Shown in pieces: positions 10,927 through 31,937 of a DNA stretch of 64,000 bases. The translations under genes were made by a program, and so were the position numbers. This DNA comes from Oleomonas cavernae (GTDB lineage Bacteria; Pseudomonadota; Alphaproteobacteria; Zavarziniales; Zavarziniaceae): assembly GCF_003590945.1 (NCBI RefSeq), contig NZ_QYUK01000011.1, positions 4,062,909 to 4,126,908 on the forward strand, written 5' to 3'. Under the pieces are notes generated by a model that saw only the letters and a list, made by a program, of their open reading frames with translations, was not told the origin of the DNA and ran no database searches. Position 1 is the stretch's first letter. Every line of letters starts with the position of its first letter.

Positions 10927-11361
10927 ATGATCCGGCCATCCCCCGAACGCCCCTTCCGCGACGCGCTCCAGCGCCTGAAGGCGGCCGGCCTGCGGCCGAC
11001 GCGCCAGCGCCTGGCGCTGACCCGGATCTTGTTCGAGAACGGCCACCGCCACCTGACCGCCGAAACCCTGCACGGCGAAGCGCGCCTGGCCGGTGTCGAC
11101 GTTTCGCTCGCCACCATCTACAACACGCTGCACCAGTTCACCACCGTGGGCCTGCTGCGCGAGGTGGTGATCGACACCGGCAAGGCCTATTTCGACACCA
11201 ATACCGACGACCACCATCACTTCTTCTTCGAGGAGTCGGGCCGGCTGGTCGACATTCCGGGCATGGATGTCGCCATCACCAACCTGCCCCAGGCGCCCGC
11301 GGGCACGACCGTGGCGCGGGTCGACGTGGTGATCCGCCTGCGCGGTCCGGGTAACCCCTGA
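10927..11361 (+). CDS. irr: Iron response regulator Irr (Fur family)
   Basis: 144 residues. Winged-helix segment RPTRQRLALTRILF, then SLATIYNTLHQFTTVGLLREV and FDTNTDDHHHFFFEESGRLVDIP. This matches Irr, the heme-responsive Fur-family regulator of alphaproteobacteria. The histidine-rich HHH stretch is its heme/metal-binding region. The N-terminal cysteine heme regulatory motif of Bradyrhizobium Irr is absent, as in many other alphaproteobacteria. It represses or activates iron and heme genes through ICE boxes. The position between the flavoprotein and rubrerythrin suggests local control of both. Confidence 0.88.
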   Translation: MIRPSPERPFRDALQRLKAAGLRPTRQRLALTRILFENGHRHLTAETLHGEARLAGVDVSLATIYNTLHQFTTVGLLREVVIDTGKAYFDTNTDDHHHFFFEESGRLVDIPGMDVAITNLPQAPAGTTVARVDVVIRLRGPGNP

Positions 11362-11414
11362 CAGTCGCCGCAGCGCAGCAGAACTGTAAAGCTTTCCCGC
11401 AGCTTGCGAACGTC

Positions 11415-11431
11415 TTTCAACCGATTCTAGA
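11415..11431 (+). promoter_or_regulatory. ICE-box-like (Irr) motif upstream of rubrerythrin
   Basis: TTTCAACCGATTCTAGA matches the remembered Irr/ICE consensus (TTTAGAA-N3-TTCTAAA) at 11 of the 14 specified positions or fewer, best in the right half TTCTAGA. It lies about 155 bp before the rubrerythrin ATG and just after irr. A weak -35 (TTGCGA, 11404) would place it over the -10 region. The left half is poor, so this is tentative. Confidence 0.3.
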
Positions 11432-11586
11432 CTGTTGACGGTGCTCCCCGCAGGCTCCTATAACGGAGTCCGGCGGGGGCGATCGCAAGGCGTTATCGCC
11501 CCATCCGTTACCCGGGGATGCCCCGCGGCGGCCGCTCGGCCGCGTTGCCGGCAGGCATCCCGCCATTGCAGGGAAGGAGTGGCATC

Positions 11587-12003
11587 ATGTCGCTTGCTGG
11601 AACCAAGACCTGGGGCAATCTCAAGGACGCTTTCGCCGGCGAGAGCCAGGCGAACCGCCGTTACCTCTATTTCGCGCAGAAGGCCGACGTTGAAGGTTAC
11701 AACGACGTCGCCGCCGTGTTCCGCTCGACCGCCGAGGGCGAGACGGGCCATGCCCACGGCCACCTCGAATTCCTCGAGGAAGTGGGCGATCCCGCGACCG
11801 GCGAGCCGATCGGCGGCACCGACCTGAACCTCAAGGCCGCCATCGCCGGCGAGACCCACGAATACACCGACATGTATCCGGGCATGGCCAAGACCGCCCG
11901 CGAGGAAGGCTTCGACGAGATCGCCGACTGGTTCGAGACCCTGGCCAAGGCCGAGAAGTCTCATGCCGGCCGCTTCCAGAAGGCGCTCGACACCCTCGCC
12001 TGA
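11587..12003 (+). CDS. Rubrerythrin-type diiron protein
   Basis: 138 residues starting [12 protein letters not shown] behind AAGGAG. It has the ferritin-like four-helix diiron motifs [36 protein letters not shown] and AEKSHAGRF, which supply the E/E..H ligands. The C-terminal rubredoxin domain of classical rubrerythrin is missing, so this is the short form. These proteins reduce H2O2 in the cytoplasm. The next two genes (Fe-S oxidoreductase, DUF3501) are frequent partners and may supply electrons. Confidence 0.9.
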
Positions 12004-12013
12004 GACCGCGCAT

Positions 12014-12104
12014 CCCTCCTCACCCAACCCTCTCCTCCCAGGAGGAGAGGGCTCGAGTGACTCCCCTCTGCCCTTTAGGGCGGAGGGGTCGGGGGAGGGG
12101 GGTC
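12014..12104. repeat. Dispersed intergenic repeat, family A, copy 1
   Basis: The sequence holds CCTCACCCAACCCTCTCC, a small hairpin (CTCCTCC/GGAGGAG) and a C- and then G-rich tail with GGGCGGAGGGG. Three similar elements occur at 18924, 20341 and 42801. It lies between rubrerythrin and the Fe-S protein gene and encodes nothing. Confidence 0.7.
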
Positions 12105-12133
12105 TCTGACCAGAGAAATCCGATGAGGCCGGC

Positions 12134-13483
12134 ATGAGAGAAGGTTCGCTCGAGGCGCCGACGCGCCATCCGCTGGCGTGGAACGACCCCGATTTCTACG
12201 ACGAGGCCAAGCTCGACGCGGAATTGCGCCGGGTCTTCGACATCTGCCACGGCTGCCGCCGCTGCTTCAACCTGTGCGACTCGTTCCCCCGCCTGTTCGA
12301 CCTGGTCGATGCGACCAGCGAAGGCGAGGTGCATGGCGTGAAATCGGAAGACTTCGGTGCGGTCGTCGATGCCTGCACCCTGTGCGACCTGTGCTTCATG
12401 ACCAAGTGCCCCTATGTGCCGCCGCACGAATTCAACCTGGATTTCCCGCACCTGATGCTGCGCTACCGCGCGGTCGAGCATAGCAAGGGCGAGACTCCCT
12501 TCGCGCAGCGGCAGTTGGCGCGCACTGACCGCAACGGCAAGCTGGCCGGCGCCATGGCGGGCCTGTCCAACTGGGCGACCGACGCCGACAACAAGTTCAC
12601 CCGCGGCCTGATGGAGAAGGCCGCCGGCATCGATGCCCATGCGGCCCTGCCGAAATTCCACCGGGCGACCTTCAAGCGCCAGGCCAGGAAATCCCCGATC
12701 GAGGTCAATGCCGCGGCGCCCGCCCATGGCCGCAAGGCGGTGATCTATGCCACCTGCTTTGCCAATTACAACGCGCCCGAGATCGGCATGGCCGCGCGCG
12801 CGGTACTGGCCAGGAACGGCGTCGAAACCGAGGTGGTCTACCCCAGGTGCTGCGGCATGCCGCTGCTGGAACACGGCAATCTCGAAGGGGTGGTGGCCAA
12901 TGCCCAGGCGATCAAGGCCGAATTGCTGCCCTGGGTCGACAAGGGTTACGACATCGTCGCCCTGGTGCCGTCCTGCGCCTTGATGATGAAATTCGAATGG
13001 GGCCTGCTGATGCCGGATGACGCCGACATCAAGCGCCTGGGCGACGCCGTCTACGACATTCCCGAATATGTCGTCGACATCGCCAAGAAGGAAGGCCTGG
13101 CCCCGGGCCTGGCGCCCTTGGAAGGCGGCATCGCCGTGCACATCGCCTGCCATGCCCGGGCCCAGAACATGGGCGCCAAGGCCGCCGAAATGCTGAAGCT
13201 GATCCCCGGCCAGGACCTCCAGGTGATCGAGCGCTGCTCGGGCCACGGCGGTTCCTGGGGCGTGCTCAAGGAGTTCCACGAGGTGGCGCTGAAGGTGGGC
13301 AAGCCGGTGGCGCGAACCGCGGCCAAGGCCGGCAAGGCCCATGTCGCCTCGGAATGCCCGCTGGCGGGGGCCCATATCGTCGAGGGCATGCGCCAGTTGA
13401 ACGGCGACGGCACGGCCAAGGTCCCCGACAAGGCCCCGCACCCGATCGAACTGTTCGCCCGGGCCTACGGCATCGAGGCCTAG
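12134..13483 (+). CDS. Two-cluster Fe-S oxidoreductase with CCG domains (heterodisulfide-reductase/GlpC-like)
   Basis: 449 residues. Two 4Fe-4S motifs near the N-terminus are visible: [15 protein letters not shown] and [13 protein letters not shown]. The rest is the HdrB/GlpC-type CCG module with [30 protein letters not shown] and CSGHGGSWG. Such proteins pass electrons between soluble donors and a disulfide or quinone. It sits between rubrerythrin and DUF3501, a grouping seen in many alpha- and betaproteobacteria. The likely role is to feed electrons to rubrerythrin. That is inference. Confidence 0.9.
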
Positions 13484-26799: not shown

Positions 26800-27615
26800 T
26801 TGCGAGGGTTTGCCCGAACCGTCCGCCAATGCCTGTGGGGCCTGCTGCTGGCGGCCGCGGCCTGGCCGGCGCATGCCGCCTGGACCGAGCCCGAGGGCCA
26901 CGGCCTGGTCATCAATACTGTAACCATTACCTTCTCGCGCGCCAATTTCGACGCGAACGGCGAACTCTATGTCGCCCCGGTGAAGCGGCGGATCGAGTTC
27001 AGCCCCTATCTGCAATACGGCGTCTTCGACGGCTGGACCGCGATCGTCCAGCCGACCTATGCCCAGGCCCGCACGACGCAGCCCGAGGCGACAAGCGAGC
27101 AAGGTTTCTCCAAAGTTTTCCTCGGCCTGCGCCATCGCCTGTTCCAGGACGAGAGCGATGTCCTCTCGGTCCAGCCCGGCATCACCTTCAGCCCCGGCGA
27201 CCGTGTGCGCGCGCAATTGCTGGGCGGGGGTGACGCCATCGCCGAATTGCGCCTGCTGTGGGGGCACAATTTCACCATCCCCGACCCGTTCAGCGACGAC
27301 GACGAAATGCCGGCCTTCTGCGTGCTCGAACTGGCGCCGCGCCTGCCCGAAGGCAGCGGGCCGCCGGTCGAGCTGGAGATCGATGCCACCCTGGGCTATT
27401 CGATGCGCGAGGATACCCAGTTGCTGCTGCAGTCGATCAACAAGCTGCCGCTCGACTCCGAACTGGGCAGCTATGCCAAGTATCAGTTGCAGTCGTCCAC
27501 CGTGACCGAGCTTGGCTGGGGCACGTCCCTCCAGGTCGGCGGGATCTATACCTTCGCCGGCACCAATGTCGACCAGGAGACCGCCGCCTTCCTGGCCCTG
27601 TGGGTCAGGTTCTGA
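26800..27615 (+). CDS. Outer-membrane beta-barrel-like exported protein
   Basis: 271 residues from a TTG start with GGAGG 5 bp upstream. It has a clear Sec signal ending AWPAHAA. The mature part alternates polar and hydrophobic residues and ends in WVRF with a terminal Phe, as in outer-membrane barrels. No specific family is recognised; the arrangement recalls cellular-metabolism-independent transporters of the MetA-pathway type only loosely. Its stop overlaps the convergent response regulator gene by 11 bp. Confidence 0.65.
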   Translation: MRGFARTVRQCLWGLLLAAAAWPAHAAWTEPEGHGLVINTVTITFSRANFDANGELYVAPVKRRIEFSPYLQYGVFDGWTAIVQPTYAQARTTQPEATSEQGFSKVFLGLRHRLFQDESDVLSVQPGITFSPGDRVRAQLLGGGDAIAELRLLWGHNFTIPDPFSDDDEMPAFCVLELAPRLPEGSGPPVELEIDATLGYSMREDTQLLLQSINKLPLDSELGSYAKYQLQSSTVTELGWGTSLQVGGIYTFAGTNVDQETAAFLALWVRF

Positions 27616-27988
27616 GCGGCGGCGCAGCGATCAGGTGCAGCAAGTCGTCGAGATCGAACGGCTTGGCCAGCACCGGGACGCTGCCACCCAGCAGGTCACG
27701 CGCGGCCGTGCGCAGATAGCCGTGCCCGCTCATGATCACCAGCCGGGTGGCGGGGGCCACGGCGCTCAGCACCTGGGCCAGGCGCAGGCCGTCCAGGCTG
27801 GGCATCTCAAGGTCCAGCAAGACCACGTCATGACGGTCGTCGGTCGCCGCGCGGGCGCCCAGGGCGCCGTCGCCGGCAGCGGTCACCTGGAAGCCACGAG
27901 CGACAAACCCGGTCATCAATTCATCGCGCAGGTCGTGGTTGTCCTCGACCACCAGGATGCGCCGCCCTGCCCTGCCCCCATCCTCCAT
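27605..27988 (-). CDS. Single-domain response regulator (CheY-like receiver)
   Basis: 127 residues made of one receiver domain. Acidic pair in VVEDNHD, phospho-acceptor Asp at about residue 59 in LLDLEMP, MSGHG and the LAKPF lysine all fit. There is no output domain. It is divergent from the glycan-synthesis genes, and no histidine kinase is in the window, so the partner is unknown. Confidence 0.9.
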   Translation of the reverse strand: MEDGGRAGRRILVVEDNHDLRDELMTGFVARGFQVTAAGDGALGARAATDDRHDVVLLDLEMPSLDGLRLAQVLSAVAPATRLVIMSGHGYLRTAARDLLGGSVPVLAKPFDLDDLLHLIAAPPLRT

Positions 27989-28040
27989 GAACTACCCCGC
28001 CAGATCGTGCCCCGGCATTCAACTTCATCTCATTGTTGCC

Positions 28041-28060
28041 TATGGGCATGATATGGGCAT
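28041..28060 (+). promoter_or_regulatory. Tandem 11-bp-spaced TATGGGCAT repeat upstream of glycan genes
   Basis: TATGGGCAT occurs at 28041-28049 and again at 28052-28060, an 11-bp period close to one helical turn. A weak TTGCCT lies just before. The pair is about 60 bp ahead of the first gene and could be a regulator-binding site. Confidence 0.3.
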
Positions 28061-28118
28061 CATAACGAGAACCCAAGGCCGATTGAGCCGGATCGACGGA
28101 TTGTGAAAGGCGGGCTGC

Positions 28119-28226
28119 ATGATTTCGGCGATCGGCTGGGCGCCGCTGCTGTCAATCGGCTGGATCGGCCTTACCGCCGCACTGGCGCTGGCGCGCCGCC
28201 ACCGCCATCGCCGCCGTGACCGATGA
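28119..28226 (+). CDS. 35-residue predicted single-pass membrane protein
   Basis: ATG 28119 follows GAAAGG and encodes a single hydrophobic stretch (residues about 3-25, APLLSIGWIGLTAALALA) followed by a basic RRHRHRRRDR tail. The stop overlaps the start of the GT2 synthase by 4 bp (ATGA), which argues for translational coupling. No homologue is recognised. It could be a small subunit of the synthase or only a leader ORF. Confidence 0.55.
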   Translation: MISAIGWAPLLSIGWIGLTAALALARRHRHRRRDR

Positions 28227-30109
28227 CGGGGTTCGATTGGGGCGGCGCCCTCGCCGGCCCCGCCGGCGATGCCCTGATCGCCCGCGGCATCGTCCGGGCG
28301 CCGGCGCGGGAGGCGGCCATCGACGAGGCCCGGCGCTGGCGCGCCGATCCCACCACGATCCTGCTGGCACAGACCGGGGCGGATGCCGCCAGGATCGCGG
28401 ACGCCTATGCCCAGGGCCTGGGCCTGCGCCGGATCGATCTGGCGGCCGCACCACCCGATCCTGCCCGGCTCGACTTCTCGCGGCTGGCCGATTACGGCCG
28501 CTTCCTGCTGCTGCCCTGGCGGCGCGAAGGCGATTTTACCGTCGTTGCCTGCGTCTCGCCCTCGATCGCGTTGCTCGCCATGGCCGAGGCCATGGTCGGC
28601 GGGCCGGCGATCCTGGCCGTGACGACGCGGGCAGCCCTGATCACCGCCATGACCGCGGCCTTTGCGCCCAGGCTGAGCGATGAGGCCATCAATCTGCTGG
28701 CCCGGGCCGATCCTGAAAATTCGGCCGGCCGGCCCAAAGGTCTCGCGACCGCCTGGCCTTGGTGGCTGGGGCTGGCGGCGGTATCAGCGGCGGCGGCCTT
28801 GGCGCCGTGGATCGCCTTGACCATCGCCAACGCCCTGATCGCCGTCTTCTATCTGGGCAATCTGTTGCTGCGCGGGGTGCTGGTGATCGCCGGCGGGGCC
28901 AGGCAGCCGCCGGCCCCGGCAGCACAGGCCATGGCCGATGGCGAACTGCCCCGTTACACGGTCCTGGTGCCGCTGCATGACGAGCCGGCGATCCTGCCGA
29001 TCCTGGCGGGCGCGCTCGACCGGCTCGACTATCCCAGGCCCCTGCTCGACATCAAGCTGATCATGGAGGCCGACGACCAGGCGACGCTGGCCGCGGCACA
29101 GGCCTTGAACCTGGCCGATCGCTACGACGTCGTGCTGGTGCCGCCATCCCATCCCCGCACCAAGCCCAAGGCCTGCAACTATGCCCTGCCCCTGGCGCGC
29201 GGCGACCTGCTGGTCATCTTCGATGCCGAGGACAAGCCGGAATCGGACCAGTTGCGCAAGGCCGCCGCGATCTTCCGCGATGCCCCGCCCGATCTCGCCT
29301 GTATCCAGGCGCGTCTCAATTTCTACAATGCCGAGGAGAACTGGCTGACCCGGATGTTCGCCCTCGACTATGCGCTGTGGTTCGATTTCCTGCTGCCGGG
29401 CCTGGAGCGGTTGAGCATTCCCCTGCCCCTGGGCGGCACCTCCAATCATTTCAGAACCCCCATTTTGCGAGAGGTTCTGGCCTGGGACCCGTACAATGTA
29501 ACCGAAGACGCCGATCTGGGGATTCGCCTGCGCCGCCGCGGCTACCGGGTGGGCACGGTCGACTCGACCACGTTCGAGGAAGCCACCTGCCAGGCCCACA
29601 ACTGGCTGCGCCAGCGCACGCGCTGGCTGAAGGGCTATATCCAGACCTGGGCCGTGCATATGCGGGCGCCGCGTGACCTCTGGCGGCGCCTGGGGCCGGT
29701 CGGCTTCCTGGGTTTTCAGTTCTTCATCGGCGGCACCGTGCTCTCCGGCCTGCTCAATCCCGTGGTCTGGGCCACCTGCGCCTGGTGGCTGGCGACGGGG
29801 AGCGGTGCGCTGGATGCCTTGTTCCCGTCCTTCGTGCTGGCGGCCAGCCTGCTGGCCTGGCTGGTCGGCAATTTCATCTTCCTCTACCTTGCCATGATCG
29901 CGCCGTTCCGGCGTAACTGGTACGATCTCGCGCCCTGGGCCCTGACCGCGACGCCCTACTGGGCACTGATCTCGCTCGCCGGCTACCGGGCCCTGTGGCA
30001 GTACTTCTCGCGCCCCTTCCTGTGGGAAAAGACCCGCCACGGCAACAGCCGCAAGGTCAGGGCGACCCTGGCCGGCCATGCCGCCGCCGTGGCGGAGCGG
30101 GGGCCATGA
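28223..30109 (+). CDS. Processive GT2 family glycosyltransferase with N-terminal MshEN/T2SSE-N-like domain
   Basis: 628 residues. Residues 1-170 resemble the N-terminal region of type II secretion ATPases and NfrB, which in related proteins can bind c-di-GMP. Two helices follow, then the GT2 core with LVPLHDEPAILP, EADD, FDAEDKPE, TEDADLG and QRTRWLKGYIQTW, the D,D,D,Q(Q/R)XRW set of processive synthases. The C-terminus has four or five more helices. It should make or export an envelope polysaccharide. It overlaps the previous and next genes by 4 bp. Confidence 0.87.
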   Translation: MTGFDWGGALAGPAGDALIARGIVRAPAREAAIDEARRWRADPTTILLAQTGADAARIADAYAQGLGLRRIDLAAAPPDPARLDFSRLADYGRFLLLPWRREGDFTVVACVSPSIALLAMAEAMVGGPAILAVTTRAALITAMTAAFAPRLSDEAINLLARADPENSAGRPKGLATAWPWWLGLAAVSAAAALAPWIALTIANALIAVFYLGNLLLRGVLVIAGGARQPPAPAAQAMADGELPRYTVLVPLHDEPAILPILAGALDRLDYPRPLLDIKLIMEADDQATLAAAQALNLADRYDVVLVPPSHPRTKPKACNYALPLARGDLLVIFDAEDKPESDQLRKAAAIFRDAPPDLACIQARLNFYNAEENWLTRMFALDYALWFDFLLPGLERLSIPLPLGGTSNHFRTPILREVLAWDPYNVTEDADLGIRLRRRGYRVGTVDSTTFEEATCQAHNWLRQRTRWLKGYIQTWAVHMRAPRDLWRRLGPVGFLGFQFFIGGTVLSGLLNPVVWATCAWWLATGSGALDALFPSFVLAASLLAWLVGNFIFLYLAMIAPFRRNWYDLAPWALTATPYWALISLAGYRALWQYFSRPFLWEKTRHGNSRKVRATLAGHAAAVAERGP

Positions 30110-31058
30110 CCACGCCACCGCGATGGCGGGCCTTCGTGTTCACGGCGACCATGGCGGCGCTGCTGCTGGCACTCGCCCGTCGCTTCGGCATAGAGGGCCA
30201 TGAGGCCAGCGTGATCGACCTGGCCGCCCGGGCAATCGACCGCCAGGTCGCCGCCTATCCACCCCTTCCCGTCCTGCTGACCGCCCTGCTCGACAACCTG
30301 ACCGCCGGTCTTCTGCCCTCGGCCGCCGATGTCCTGTCGGTCCTGATCGCCGGCACCGCGGGGCCGTTGTCCGCGGCCGGGCAGCGGTCTGGGCACCGGG
30401 GCTGGCCCTGGCCCTGGTCGAGGGGCCCGGCGTCGTGCTGCTTTGCCTGCTCATGCTATGCCTTGGGCTGGCCTTGCAGCAGTTTCGGGCGGGAGACGGC
30501 CCCCTGCCACTGATCGGGGCCGGCATTGCCGCCGGTATGATGCCCTTCGCCCACGCCGGTGGCGCCGCCCTCGCCCTGATCTGTGCGCCGCTGGGCATCG
30601 CGGCCCTGTCCCCCGCCCTGATCGCCGGGCGCGGCTTTACCGGCACCCTGTTGCTGGGCCTGTTTCCCTTAGGCGCCCTGACCGCCGCCTATGGCGCCCT
30701 CGCCGCGATCTATGGCGGCGATCCGACACAGCCTTTCGCGGGCCTGCTGGGGAGCGCCGGTATCGACCCCGCCTTGGGCTTGACCTGGGTTGCCCTGGCC
30801 CCGGTGACGGTGCCGTTGCTCTGGCGGGCGGTGACCATGCCGAGCCCCGACCGCCTGATCCTGGCGGGCCTGCTGGCGGCCCCCGCCCTGGCCGCGCTGC
30901 TGCACGGCCTTGGCGGCGGCACCGTAACGCCGGGCCAGATCGCTGGACCGGCCGCCGTCGTTGCCGGTCTCGCGCATCATCGCTCGCCGACCTTGCTGGT
31001 CCTGTCCTGGGGGTTGCTCCTGCTCGCCGGCTCCAGCCCGGGGACCGCGCCATGCTGA
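30106..31058 (+). CDS. GT39/ArnT-like polytopic membrane protein, with one apparent frameshift
   Basis: If one base is restored the product is about 317 residues with eight or so membrane helices. The first part runs MTTPPRWRAFVFTATMAAL to VLSVLIAGTAGP. Near 30381 the frame moves by one; adding a G to the GGG run gives a smooth AAGAAVWAP junction, and the second part continues LALALVEGPGVVLL. Topology and the early D.AARAIDRQVAAYPPLP loop recall PMT/ArnT lipid-linked sugar transferases, but it lacks their large periplasmic domain. It overlaps the GT2 gene by 4 bp and the next gene by 7 bp. Confidence 0.65.
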
Positions 31059-31937
31059 TCGCCGTGCTCGATGATGACGGCACGCGCGCGCCCGGCTATT
31101 GGGACGCCTGGCGGCACTTGGCTACGAGGCCCTACCGTTTGGCGAAGATCGAGAGCCATCCGCCGGCCTGGTCATCGTCGGCGGGCCTTTCGCGGAACCG
31201 GCCGGGGCGCTGCTGGCGCGCCTGAGTCCCGACGGCGCCGTCGTCCTGGTGATCGCCGAGGAAGTCCCTCCCGGCTTGCAGGCCGCCGCGGCCCTGTGCG
31301 GGGCCGAGATCCTGCCCGAGTCCGTGTCGGATGCCGCGTTCGCCGGCCACTTGCGCACCGCCGCCCGCCTGTGGGGCGAGGCCGCGAGGCGGCGCGTCAT
31401 GGAGGCCGAGAGGGCCCAGGTCCTGGCCGAGCGTGATGCCTTGCGTGTCCTGGCCCGTTCGAGCGCGGCGGCCTGATCCTCTCTCCCGCCACCGGCCGCT
31501 ACCAGGCGCAACTGCTGCTCGAGCACCGGGCGGCAACCATCATGATGATCGCGATCGACGACCTCGCGGCTTTGCGCGCCGGCGCCGGCATCGACGCGGC
31601 GCAGGACGCCGAACGCGCCACCGCTGCCCTGCTCGTCCGCTGCCCGGCGCGCCTGGGCGACATACTGCACGTCAGGGGGCCGGGCCAGGGCTGGGGCCTG
31701 TGGTCCGCCGATATCGACCGGCCGGCCGCGGCCGCCCAGGCCCGGCAGATCCTGGACCTGGTCGAGGCCCGCCGCCTGCCCCACGACTTCGCCCGCGGCG
31801 CCGACAGCCTGACCATTTCCATCGGCATCGCCACAACCGGCCTCAAGACCGCCGCCGGCGCGGCCGAGGCGCGCGCCCTGGAGGCCCTCGGCCGTGCCGC
31901 CAGCCTGGGCGGCAACCGCATCCGCTGGGCGGATTGA
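31052..31937 (+). CDS. Receiver-like/degenerate GGDEF protein, with two apparent frameshifts
   Basis: Restoring one base near 31104 and one near 31456 gives a 295-residue protein. Residues 1-115 look like a receiver-type alpha/beta domain (LIAVLDDD, then ILPESVSDAAF), a coiled segment follows, and the last 160 are GGDEF-like: PFERGGLILSPATGRYQAQL, MMIAID, and closing TISIGIATT with GRAASLGGNRIRW. The catalytic GG(D/E)EF loop is replaced by GPGQGWGLW, so it should not make c-di-GMP. Last gene of the glycan operon, it may act as a c-di-GMP sensor for the GT2 synthase. Confidence 0.6.

Follow-up and report, generated by a model that had tools for sequence, protein, structure and literature searches.

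Gene clusters described as xagBCD-like or sfz/sfb encode membrane synthases in which a glycosyltransferase family 2 (GT2) domain is joined to an MshEN domain, together with BcsB-like and further proteins (PMC8669469, PMC4643136, PMC8250860). In the sfz/sfb stalk clusters of Zeta- and Betaproteobacteria (PMC8250860, PMC4643136), the MshEN-GT2 gene (sfz2/xagB-like) is followed by the gene of an sfz3-like membrane protein; stalk genes have been termed xagBCD-like (Kato 2015). The xagABC(D) genes of Xanthomonas, on which the raised biofilm formation of an rpfG mutant depends, likewise form a glycosyltransferase-centred exopolysaccharide operon (PMC3609779). In Escherichia coli, NfrB is a GT2-MshEN synthase reported to bind, and to be controlled by, cyclic di-GMP (c-di-GMP), and is encoded with NfrA, described as a large tetratricopeptide-repeat/outer-membrane pore protein (PMC8669469). 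The Bcs cellulose system combines a synthase that has a single-helix partner segment with a single-pass peptide and with BcsE, which in E. coli is a degenerate tandem of receiver (REC) and GGDEF domains that binds c-di-GMP through an RxxD motif, RTGD (PMC11470070). Here we analyse a locus related to them, which lies in a 64,000-nucleotide stretch of the Oleomonas cavernae genome (the window) and consists of an open reading frame (ORF) for a 35-residue membrane peptide, an MshEN-GT2 synthase gene, two genes named here gene 3 and gene 4, and, upstream, genes for a barrel-like and a CheY-like protein (Table 1).

The locus is not of a new kind. It is an xag/sfz-type MshEN-GT2 synthase locus without the BcsB-like body, without the cluster hydrolase and with eroded MshEN contacts. 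The initial annotation had taken it for a possibly new glycan synthesis unit, a novelty that is overstated in view of the published xagBCD-like and sfz/sfb clusters and of NfrB. As in sfz/sfb clusters, the synthase gene is followed by that of an sfz3-like membrane protein, and the barrel-like protein has homologues at the presumed sfz5 position in L088 and L089, two loci assigned to the sfz type by inference from gene order and lengths. In contrast to these clusters, the window has no BcsB-like sfz1 and no GH113 hydrolase (the presumed sfz4 position), its gene 3 is shorter, the barrel gene stands upstream and not downstream, a gene for a receiver with a dead GGDEF domain is added, a CheY-like gene lies in between and the MshEN motif is eroded. 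The likeness to xagABC(D) is drawn from published descriptions. With NfrB/NfrA the window shares a GT2 domain fused to MshEN and a gene for an outer-membrane protein, here a predicted one; the MshEN domain of NfrB is C-terminal, retains 10/12 contact residues and binds c-di-GMP, whereas that of the window is N-terminal and eroded. Compared with Bcs, gene 4 lacks the NTPase-like domain, MshEN replaces PilZ and the peptide has no proven homology to BcsB; the host genome carries a separate canonical BcsB elsewhere.

An MshEN-GT2 synthase with eroded MshEN contacts

The annotation of the second gene as a GT2 synthase with an MshEN-like N-terminus was borne out. Pfam places MshEN at residues 66–150 (E 9.6e-6, above cut-off) and GT2 within residues 243–529. 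The catalytic letters TED (427–429) and QxxRW (QRTRW, 464–468) are invariant at their defining letters in eight alignment rows, and the DxD position reads DAED. We searched structures with a profile built from the window protein and seven relatives: its glycosyltransferase part matches BcsA structures (E about 1e-20) and its N-terminal part matches PilF, MshE and PilB structures (MshE 5htl, E 4.5e-12). AlphaFold models from the single sequence were too poor for use (mean predicted local distance difference test score 42 for the GT2 protein and 32 for the barrel-like protein). The GT2 gene is intact, and its product is 59% identical to the orthologue of the genus genome G004. A membrane polysaccharide synthase unit at this locus is well supported, and the GT2 protein probably synthesizes the polymer. 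An ATGA overlap joins the 35-residue ORF to the synthase gene and a second one, at 30106–30109, joins the synthase gene to gene 3, while genes 3 and 4 overlap at 31052–31058. The overlapping four-gene unit described initially therefore stands for its overlaps, but genes 3 and 4 are not open as proteins here.

The glycosyltransferase profile, at E ≤ 1e-60, matched at least 88 of 398 genomes of the phylum and at least 37 of 289 of the class; the two sets overlap, and the counts may be low as at most 3 or 4 candidates were scored per genome. Among the 90 matches listed in the phylum scan, 23 start beyond profile position 120 and are thus without most of the MshEN part. A search of plasmid records with the query returned 40 records, 39 of them with less than 80% query coverage (top match CP131057.1), and named genomes, scanned with one protein, yielded a single locus. 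The detailed comparison covered 28 loci, of which 4 belong to the genus and 24 do not; they were picked from the better matches and not at random; L028 and L030 were left out of these counts, and the gene calls are crude and served for neighbourhood reading only. In the genus loci L022 (genome G004), L023 (G002) and L025 (G003), gene order is conserved from PhaC through barrel, CheY (reverse), micro-ORF, GT2 and gene 3 to gene 4, as far as the contigs reach, that of L025 ending within gene 3. L024 (G001) keeps the micro-ORF, GT2, gene 3 and gene 4; its fetched stretch gave no match for barrel, CheY or PhaC. A sixth genus genome, G005 (75% complete), gave no GT2 match.

MshEN binds c-di-GMP through a pair of motifs, each 24 residues long and with six key residues (PMC5013675). 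We looked for the motif RLGxx(LVI)(LVI)xxG(LVI)(LVI)xxxxLxxxLxxQ twice per domain. A search of the host genome with the MshEN family (PF05157) gave 31.3 bits for the GT2 protein, so that the domain is recognisable as a member of the family, while its c-di-GMP contacts are eroded: the 12 contact positions read PAGRIA/DPTIYG, a match at 1 of 12, and the tandem RLG...L...L..Q motif is gone. A free motif scan of the N-terminal part reached a best score of 5, inside the range of 3–7 obtained with 500 shuffles of the first 150 residues. The genus relatives retain 1–3 of the 12 contact residues; elsewhere, 7/12 are kept in Hyphomicrobiales bacterium UR115 (genome G046), 10/12 in L090, L099 and NfrB and 11/12 in L091. 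With 1/12 contact residues, c-di-GMP sensing was ruled out as the default reading of the window MshEN domain. By these residue counts, the domain has probably lost c-di-GMP binding, and c-di-GMP control through MshEN is unlikely in the genus. Across the genome, the GGDEF family (PF00990) gives 13 matches, spread over 12 ORFs, and c-di-GMP signalling as such therefore probably exists in the organism.

In the sfz2-like synthases of L088 and L089, MshEN-type motif pairs occur twice in tandem, and the first pair has 10/12 contact residues. The sfz paper discusses a type II secretion system-type part and RxxD/RxxxR motifs of Sfz2, and the word MshEN does not occur in it (PMC8250860). A probable c-di-GMP sensor of the stalk clusters may thus have gone unnamed.

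The 35-residue peptide at the place of a BcsB tail

The 35-residue membrane ORF reported before the synthase was confirmed. Its product has one membrane helix and a basic tail and is kept directly before GT2 in all five genus genomes that have a GT2 match (window genome included), the start codon being unclear in L024. Third codon positions account for 60 of the 85 pairwise differences in the nine-codon tail (the pairs are not independent), a bias that favours a coding gene.

In relatives of this synthase, the gene immediately before GT2 can encode a BcsB-like protein that ends with a single membrane helix and a tail. Such a gene lies directly upstream of GT2 in 7/24 non-genus loci (L026, L087, L088, L089, L093, L094 and L096), four of which had trained the BcsB-like profile; five of the upstream proteins were tested with Pfam BcsB, and four are above the cut-off and that of L026 below it. 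The test for a BcsB tail reads the last 45 residues only, and an earlier version of the same length missed the L088 tail. In the genus, the place of the BcsB tail is occupied only by the short one-helix, basic-tailed ORF: none of the 4 genus loci has a BcsB-like gene before GT2, and a six-frame profile search of the window gave no match. The sole PF03170 match of the genome is the canonical BcsB, located away from the locus.

In the glycosyltransferase tree, the genus (5 rows) has a Shimodaira–Hasegawa-like approximate likelihood-ratio (SH-aLRT) support of 100 and is sister, with a fork support of 84, to an 11-row clade (support 95) in which 7 rows have an upstream BcsB-like gene or tail; L101, L058, L103 and L082, without the anchor motif, were left out of the tree. 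Loss of BcsB in the genus is somewhat favoured over gain in the sister clade because gene 3 and the REC/GGDEF gene are shared. The window peptide has the pattern W-x-x-(L/V/I)-(T/S) in common with BcsB-like tails, which the other four genus peptides do not match exactly. For cellulose synthesis in vitro, BcsA and the BcsB tail anchor suffice (PMC11470070). Its position, its topology and this sufficiency make a minimal tail anchor the most interesting reading of the peptide, which may thus be a surviving BcsB tail anchor or its functional equivalent; position is the main evidence and the sequence likeness is weak.

The regions between the CheY-like gene and the micro-ORF in L022–L025 share a short near-palindrome resembling GCATACTATTCTATGC, placed upstream of the micro-ORF and perhaps bound by a regulator; in the window, no more than a looser form of it is seen, near 28035–28070.

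Partner genes and the upstream barrel-like protein

No single ORF spans gene 3 or gene 4 in the window. Their three frame breaks (Table 1) fall within 1.8 kb, while nearly all coding stretches of the rest of the window lie in single ORFs with no comparable break evident, the last 7 kb being less clear. In L022, L023 and L024 both genes are single open frames, of about 297–334 and 291–302 residues, respectively, which indicates that they are real genes, broken in this assembly. Gene 3 homologues measure about 300 residues in genus relatives and about 500 in outgroups. They follow GT2 in the genus and in 6/24 non-genus loci: L087, L088, L089, L093, L094 and L026, the last being a training sequence. 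The assignment of gene 3 to glycosyltransferase family 39 (protein mannosyltransferases) could not be upheld: neither the two window pieces nor six homologues (L022–L024, L026, L088, L093) have a Pfam family, and no meaningful PDB profile match was obtained.

The dead GGDEF domain proposed for gene 4 was confirmed. At its active site, RGPGQGW stands in place of GG(D/E)EF, and the Pfam GGDEF match (E 0.0011) is below cut-off. Homologues lie just downstream in 4/24 non-genus loci (L087, L093, L094 and the training sequence L026), a count that excludes weak opposite-strand matches about 4 kb away in L029 and L103. They measure 291 to about 320 residues (339 for the open frame of L093), consist of receiver and GGDEF parts only, and also have a degenerate GGDEF site in L022–L024, L026, L087, L093 and L094. 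In L026, L087, L093 and L094 the dead GGDEF domain accompanies a receiver that, by reading, has its phospho-Asp and Lys and looks intact; in the genus, both domains are degenerate. The inhibitory site (I-site) was placed in the register of known cyclases. It reads RLGD in the window, L022 and L024 and RIGD in L093 and L094; RxxD is lost in the genus member L023 (SLGD) and in the outgroups L026 (QLGD) and L087 (ALDI). Since BcsE binds c-di-GMP through the RxxD of such a degenerate tandem, species with an intact gene 4 could sense c-di-GMP by proxy, and a c-di-GMP role of the dead GGDEF domain is possible. The earlier suggestion that both domains may sense c-di-GMP is thus unlikely for MshEN by the contact count and keeps, for gene 4, an RxxD motif as in BcsE, though in a frame-broken gene.

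The gene at 26800–27615, overlooked in the initial annotation, belongs to the synthase system. Its product has a signal-peptide-like N-terminus and ends in ...ALWVRF; the endings W.RF or WYRF are found in the barrel-like proteins of the window, the genus relatives and L096. No Pfam family was found for it. ORFs of the family, detected with a genus profile, lie near GT2 in 6/24 non-genus loci (L087, L090, L093, L094, L096 and L100). A broader profile links the family to the L088 and L089 proteins at the presumed sfz5 position (E 1.6e-12 and 1.8e-14), which the narrower genus profile alone does not match (E 0.07 and 0.04). Alignment of the family with the presumed sfz5 proteins by hhalign gave a probability of 97%, against 0.1–0.2% for five shuffled controls. 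The product is predicted to be an outer-membrane barrel and may export the polymer. L028 comes from G006, a genome of the same family but another genus. Its GT2 match spans query residues 154–622 only, so MshEN is missing, and a barrel-family stretch (26% identity, E 7e-7) adjoins it.

GH113 (PF22612) had no match at E ≤ 0.001 in the whole host genome. The hydrolases at L087:608–1618 and L088:3103–4209 match Pfam GH113 (E 4e-38 and 6e-47); the sfz paper lists the sfz4 product as a predicted glycosyl hydrolase of family 10 (PMC8250860).

The divergent CheY-like regulator noted initially was recovered, tail-to-tail with the barrel gene. By reading, its acidic pair, phospho-Asp, Ser and Lys appear complete. 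The gene is present in the regions of 3/4 genus relatives and was not found in that of L024. In L023 (G002), a tandem array at 11277–12792 (326-bp unit, 4.7 copies, 93% matches) lies at the CheY-like gene; its unit comprises the C-terminal half of CheY and a spacer, and the later copies match CheY residues of about 55–120 only.

Table 1 Features of the synthase locus, in window coordinates
Feature	Position	Strand	Basis and remarks
Outer-membrane barrel-like protein, 271 residues, proposed export pore	26800–27615	+	Family homology, sequence pattern
Single-domain CheY-like response regulator	27605–27988	-	Pfam Response_reg E 7e-19
Micro-ORF, 35 residues, single transmembrane helix	28119–28226	+	ORF list; basic C-terminal tail RRHRHRRRDR; ATGA coupling to synthase
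MshEN-GT2 polysaccharide synthase, XagB/Sfz2-type, 628 residues	28223–30109	+	Pfam and structure profile matches
MshEN-like N-terminal domain of the GT2 protein, c-di-GMP motif eroded	28253–28672	+	1/12 contact residues
Gene 3, polytopic membrane protein, XagC/Sfz3-like position	30106–31058	+	Frame-broken at about 30360–30400
Gene 4, degenerate receiver and degenerate GGDEF, RLGD at I-site position	31052–31937	+	Frame-broken at about 31108–31115 and 31440–31475

A model of the locus and its alternatives

The best explanation, which we regard as fairly probable, is a reduced xag/sfz-type exopolysaccharide machine whose ancestral c-di-GMP switch has decayed, with the 35-residue peptide as a minimal anchor and the barrel as a pore. 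Working at the cytoplasmic face, the GT2 domain would polymerise a nucleotide sugar and pass the chain across the membrane by way of its own helices. The peptide would pack on these helices as a minimal tail anchor replacing the full BcsB-like co-polymerase, and the barrel-like protein would let the polymer out across the outer membrane. The ancestral post-translational switch would have been c-di-GMP acting on the tandem MshEN motif and on the REC/dead-GGDEF partner. Its decay is suggested because the MshEN contacts are gone in the five genus members examined, both domains of the partner are degenerate, and gene 4, together with gene 3, is frame-broken here. Control would now be constitutive, or transcriptional, perhaps with the divergent CheY-like protein, or by proxy through RxxD where gene 4 is intact. 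A bolder proposal, that the lineage cut a BcsB-type co-polymerase down to a free 35-residue tail-anchor microprotein while the switch decayed, leaving a minimal synthase of catalytic subunit, helix and pore, is speculative and seems to us somewhat unlikely.

Several points weigh against this model. Its support comes from sequence comparison. Contact counts are middling or low outside the genus too (6 in L029, 5 in L093 and L094, 4 in L087 and L096), so MshEN erosion is not confined to the genus; counts of 1–4 in L101–L106 rest on a doubtful alignment. Moreover, NfrB binds with 10/12 contacts and abolishing its binding seems to take more than one change (PMC8669469), so residue loss predicts loss of binding and does not prove it. 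We scored the peptides against BcsB tails, with 365 natural transmembrane-plus-basic segments and 400 shuffles as controls. The window peptide obtained 7.0 bits, a score reached by 5/365 natural segments and 65/400 shuffles; the values were 10.4 bits (0/365, 23/400) for L022, 2.4 bits (28/365, 14/400) for L023, 0.9 bits (52/365, 183/400) for L024 and 2.8 bits (25/365, 78/400) for L025. The hhalign probability between peptide and BcsB-tail profiles, a weak comparison, was 49%. On the tree, a loss of BcsB in the genus and its gain in the sister clade cost one event each, and an upstream BcsB-like gene was not shown in 4 of the 11 sister-clade rows, which the 45-residue tail test did not flag. 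The fetched regions of L024 and L026 gave no barrel gene. Finally, local errors of sequencing might account for the frame breaks.

If so, genes 3 and 4 would be intact in the organism and the operon a complete, ordinary xag/sfz relative, an alternative that we consider a serious one, at slightly less than even chances. The third-position GC content of the gene pieces is high (0.85–0.93), and the 4.37-Mb contig in a 29-contig assembly makes long reads with indel errors possible. On the other hand, the breaks cluster in 1.8 kb of a window whose other coding stretches are nearly all in single ORFs, and in the genus relatives, too, the two genes show shortening or degeneration. The anchor role of the peptide faces its own alternative, since the 35-residue ORF may play no part in synthesis, whether it encodes a small membrane protein of unrelated kind or is a chance frame that is not coding. 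This is possible though doubtful: the homology to the BcsB tail is not significant against shuffles, a transmembrane helix with a basic tail is a common pattern and the start codon is unclear in L024, but the ORF occupies the same place in 5 genus genomes with GT2, its basic tail is conserved with third-position-biased change, and in the window it is ATGA-coupled.

The unit could also still be under c-di-GMP control, with the dead GGDEF domain as a BcsE-like sensor acting through RxxD and tethered by the 35-residue peptide as BcsF tethers BcsE. The I-site motifs of the window, L022, L024, L093 and L094 agree with this, as do the GGDEF proteins encoded in the genome and the precedent of BcsF, a single-pass peptide that recruits the RxxD binder BcsE in E. 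coli (PMC11470070). We nevertheless judge it unlikely, given the motifs lost in L023, L026 and L087, a receiver part that by eye has no RxxD, the absence from gene 4 of the NTPase-like BcsE domain gripped by BcsF and the two frame breaks of gene 4 in this genome. That the whole locus is a decaying, non-functional remnant is very unlikely. Two frame-broken genes, dead REC and GGDEF domains, a window without a BcsB-like gene and a genome without GH113 would fit such a remnant, but the GT2 gene is intact with its catalytic motifs and its identity to the G004 orthologue, and the barrel gene and micro-ORF are open and conserved.

Returning to the reduced exopolysaccharide machine, the locus suggests that c-di-GMP control can be lost from an MshEN-type synthase. 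The barrel-like family is a candidate export pore for stalk-type clusters, in which the sfz5 product is listed as function-unknown (PMC8250860). If the model is true, the helix-only lineage would be nature's version of the in vitro experiment with BcsA and the BcsB tail, and would show the purpose of the large periplasmic co-polymerase.

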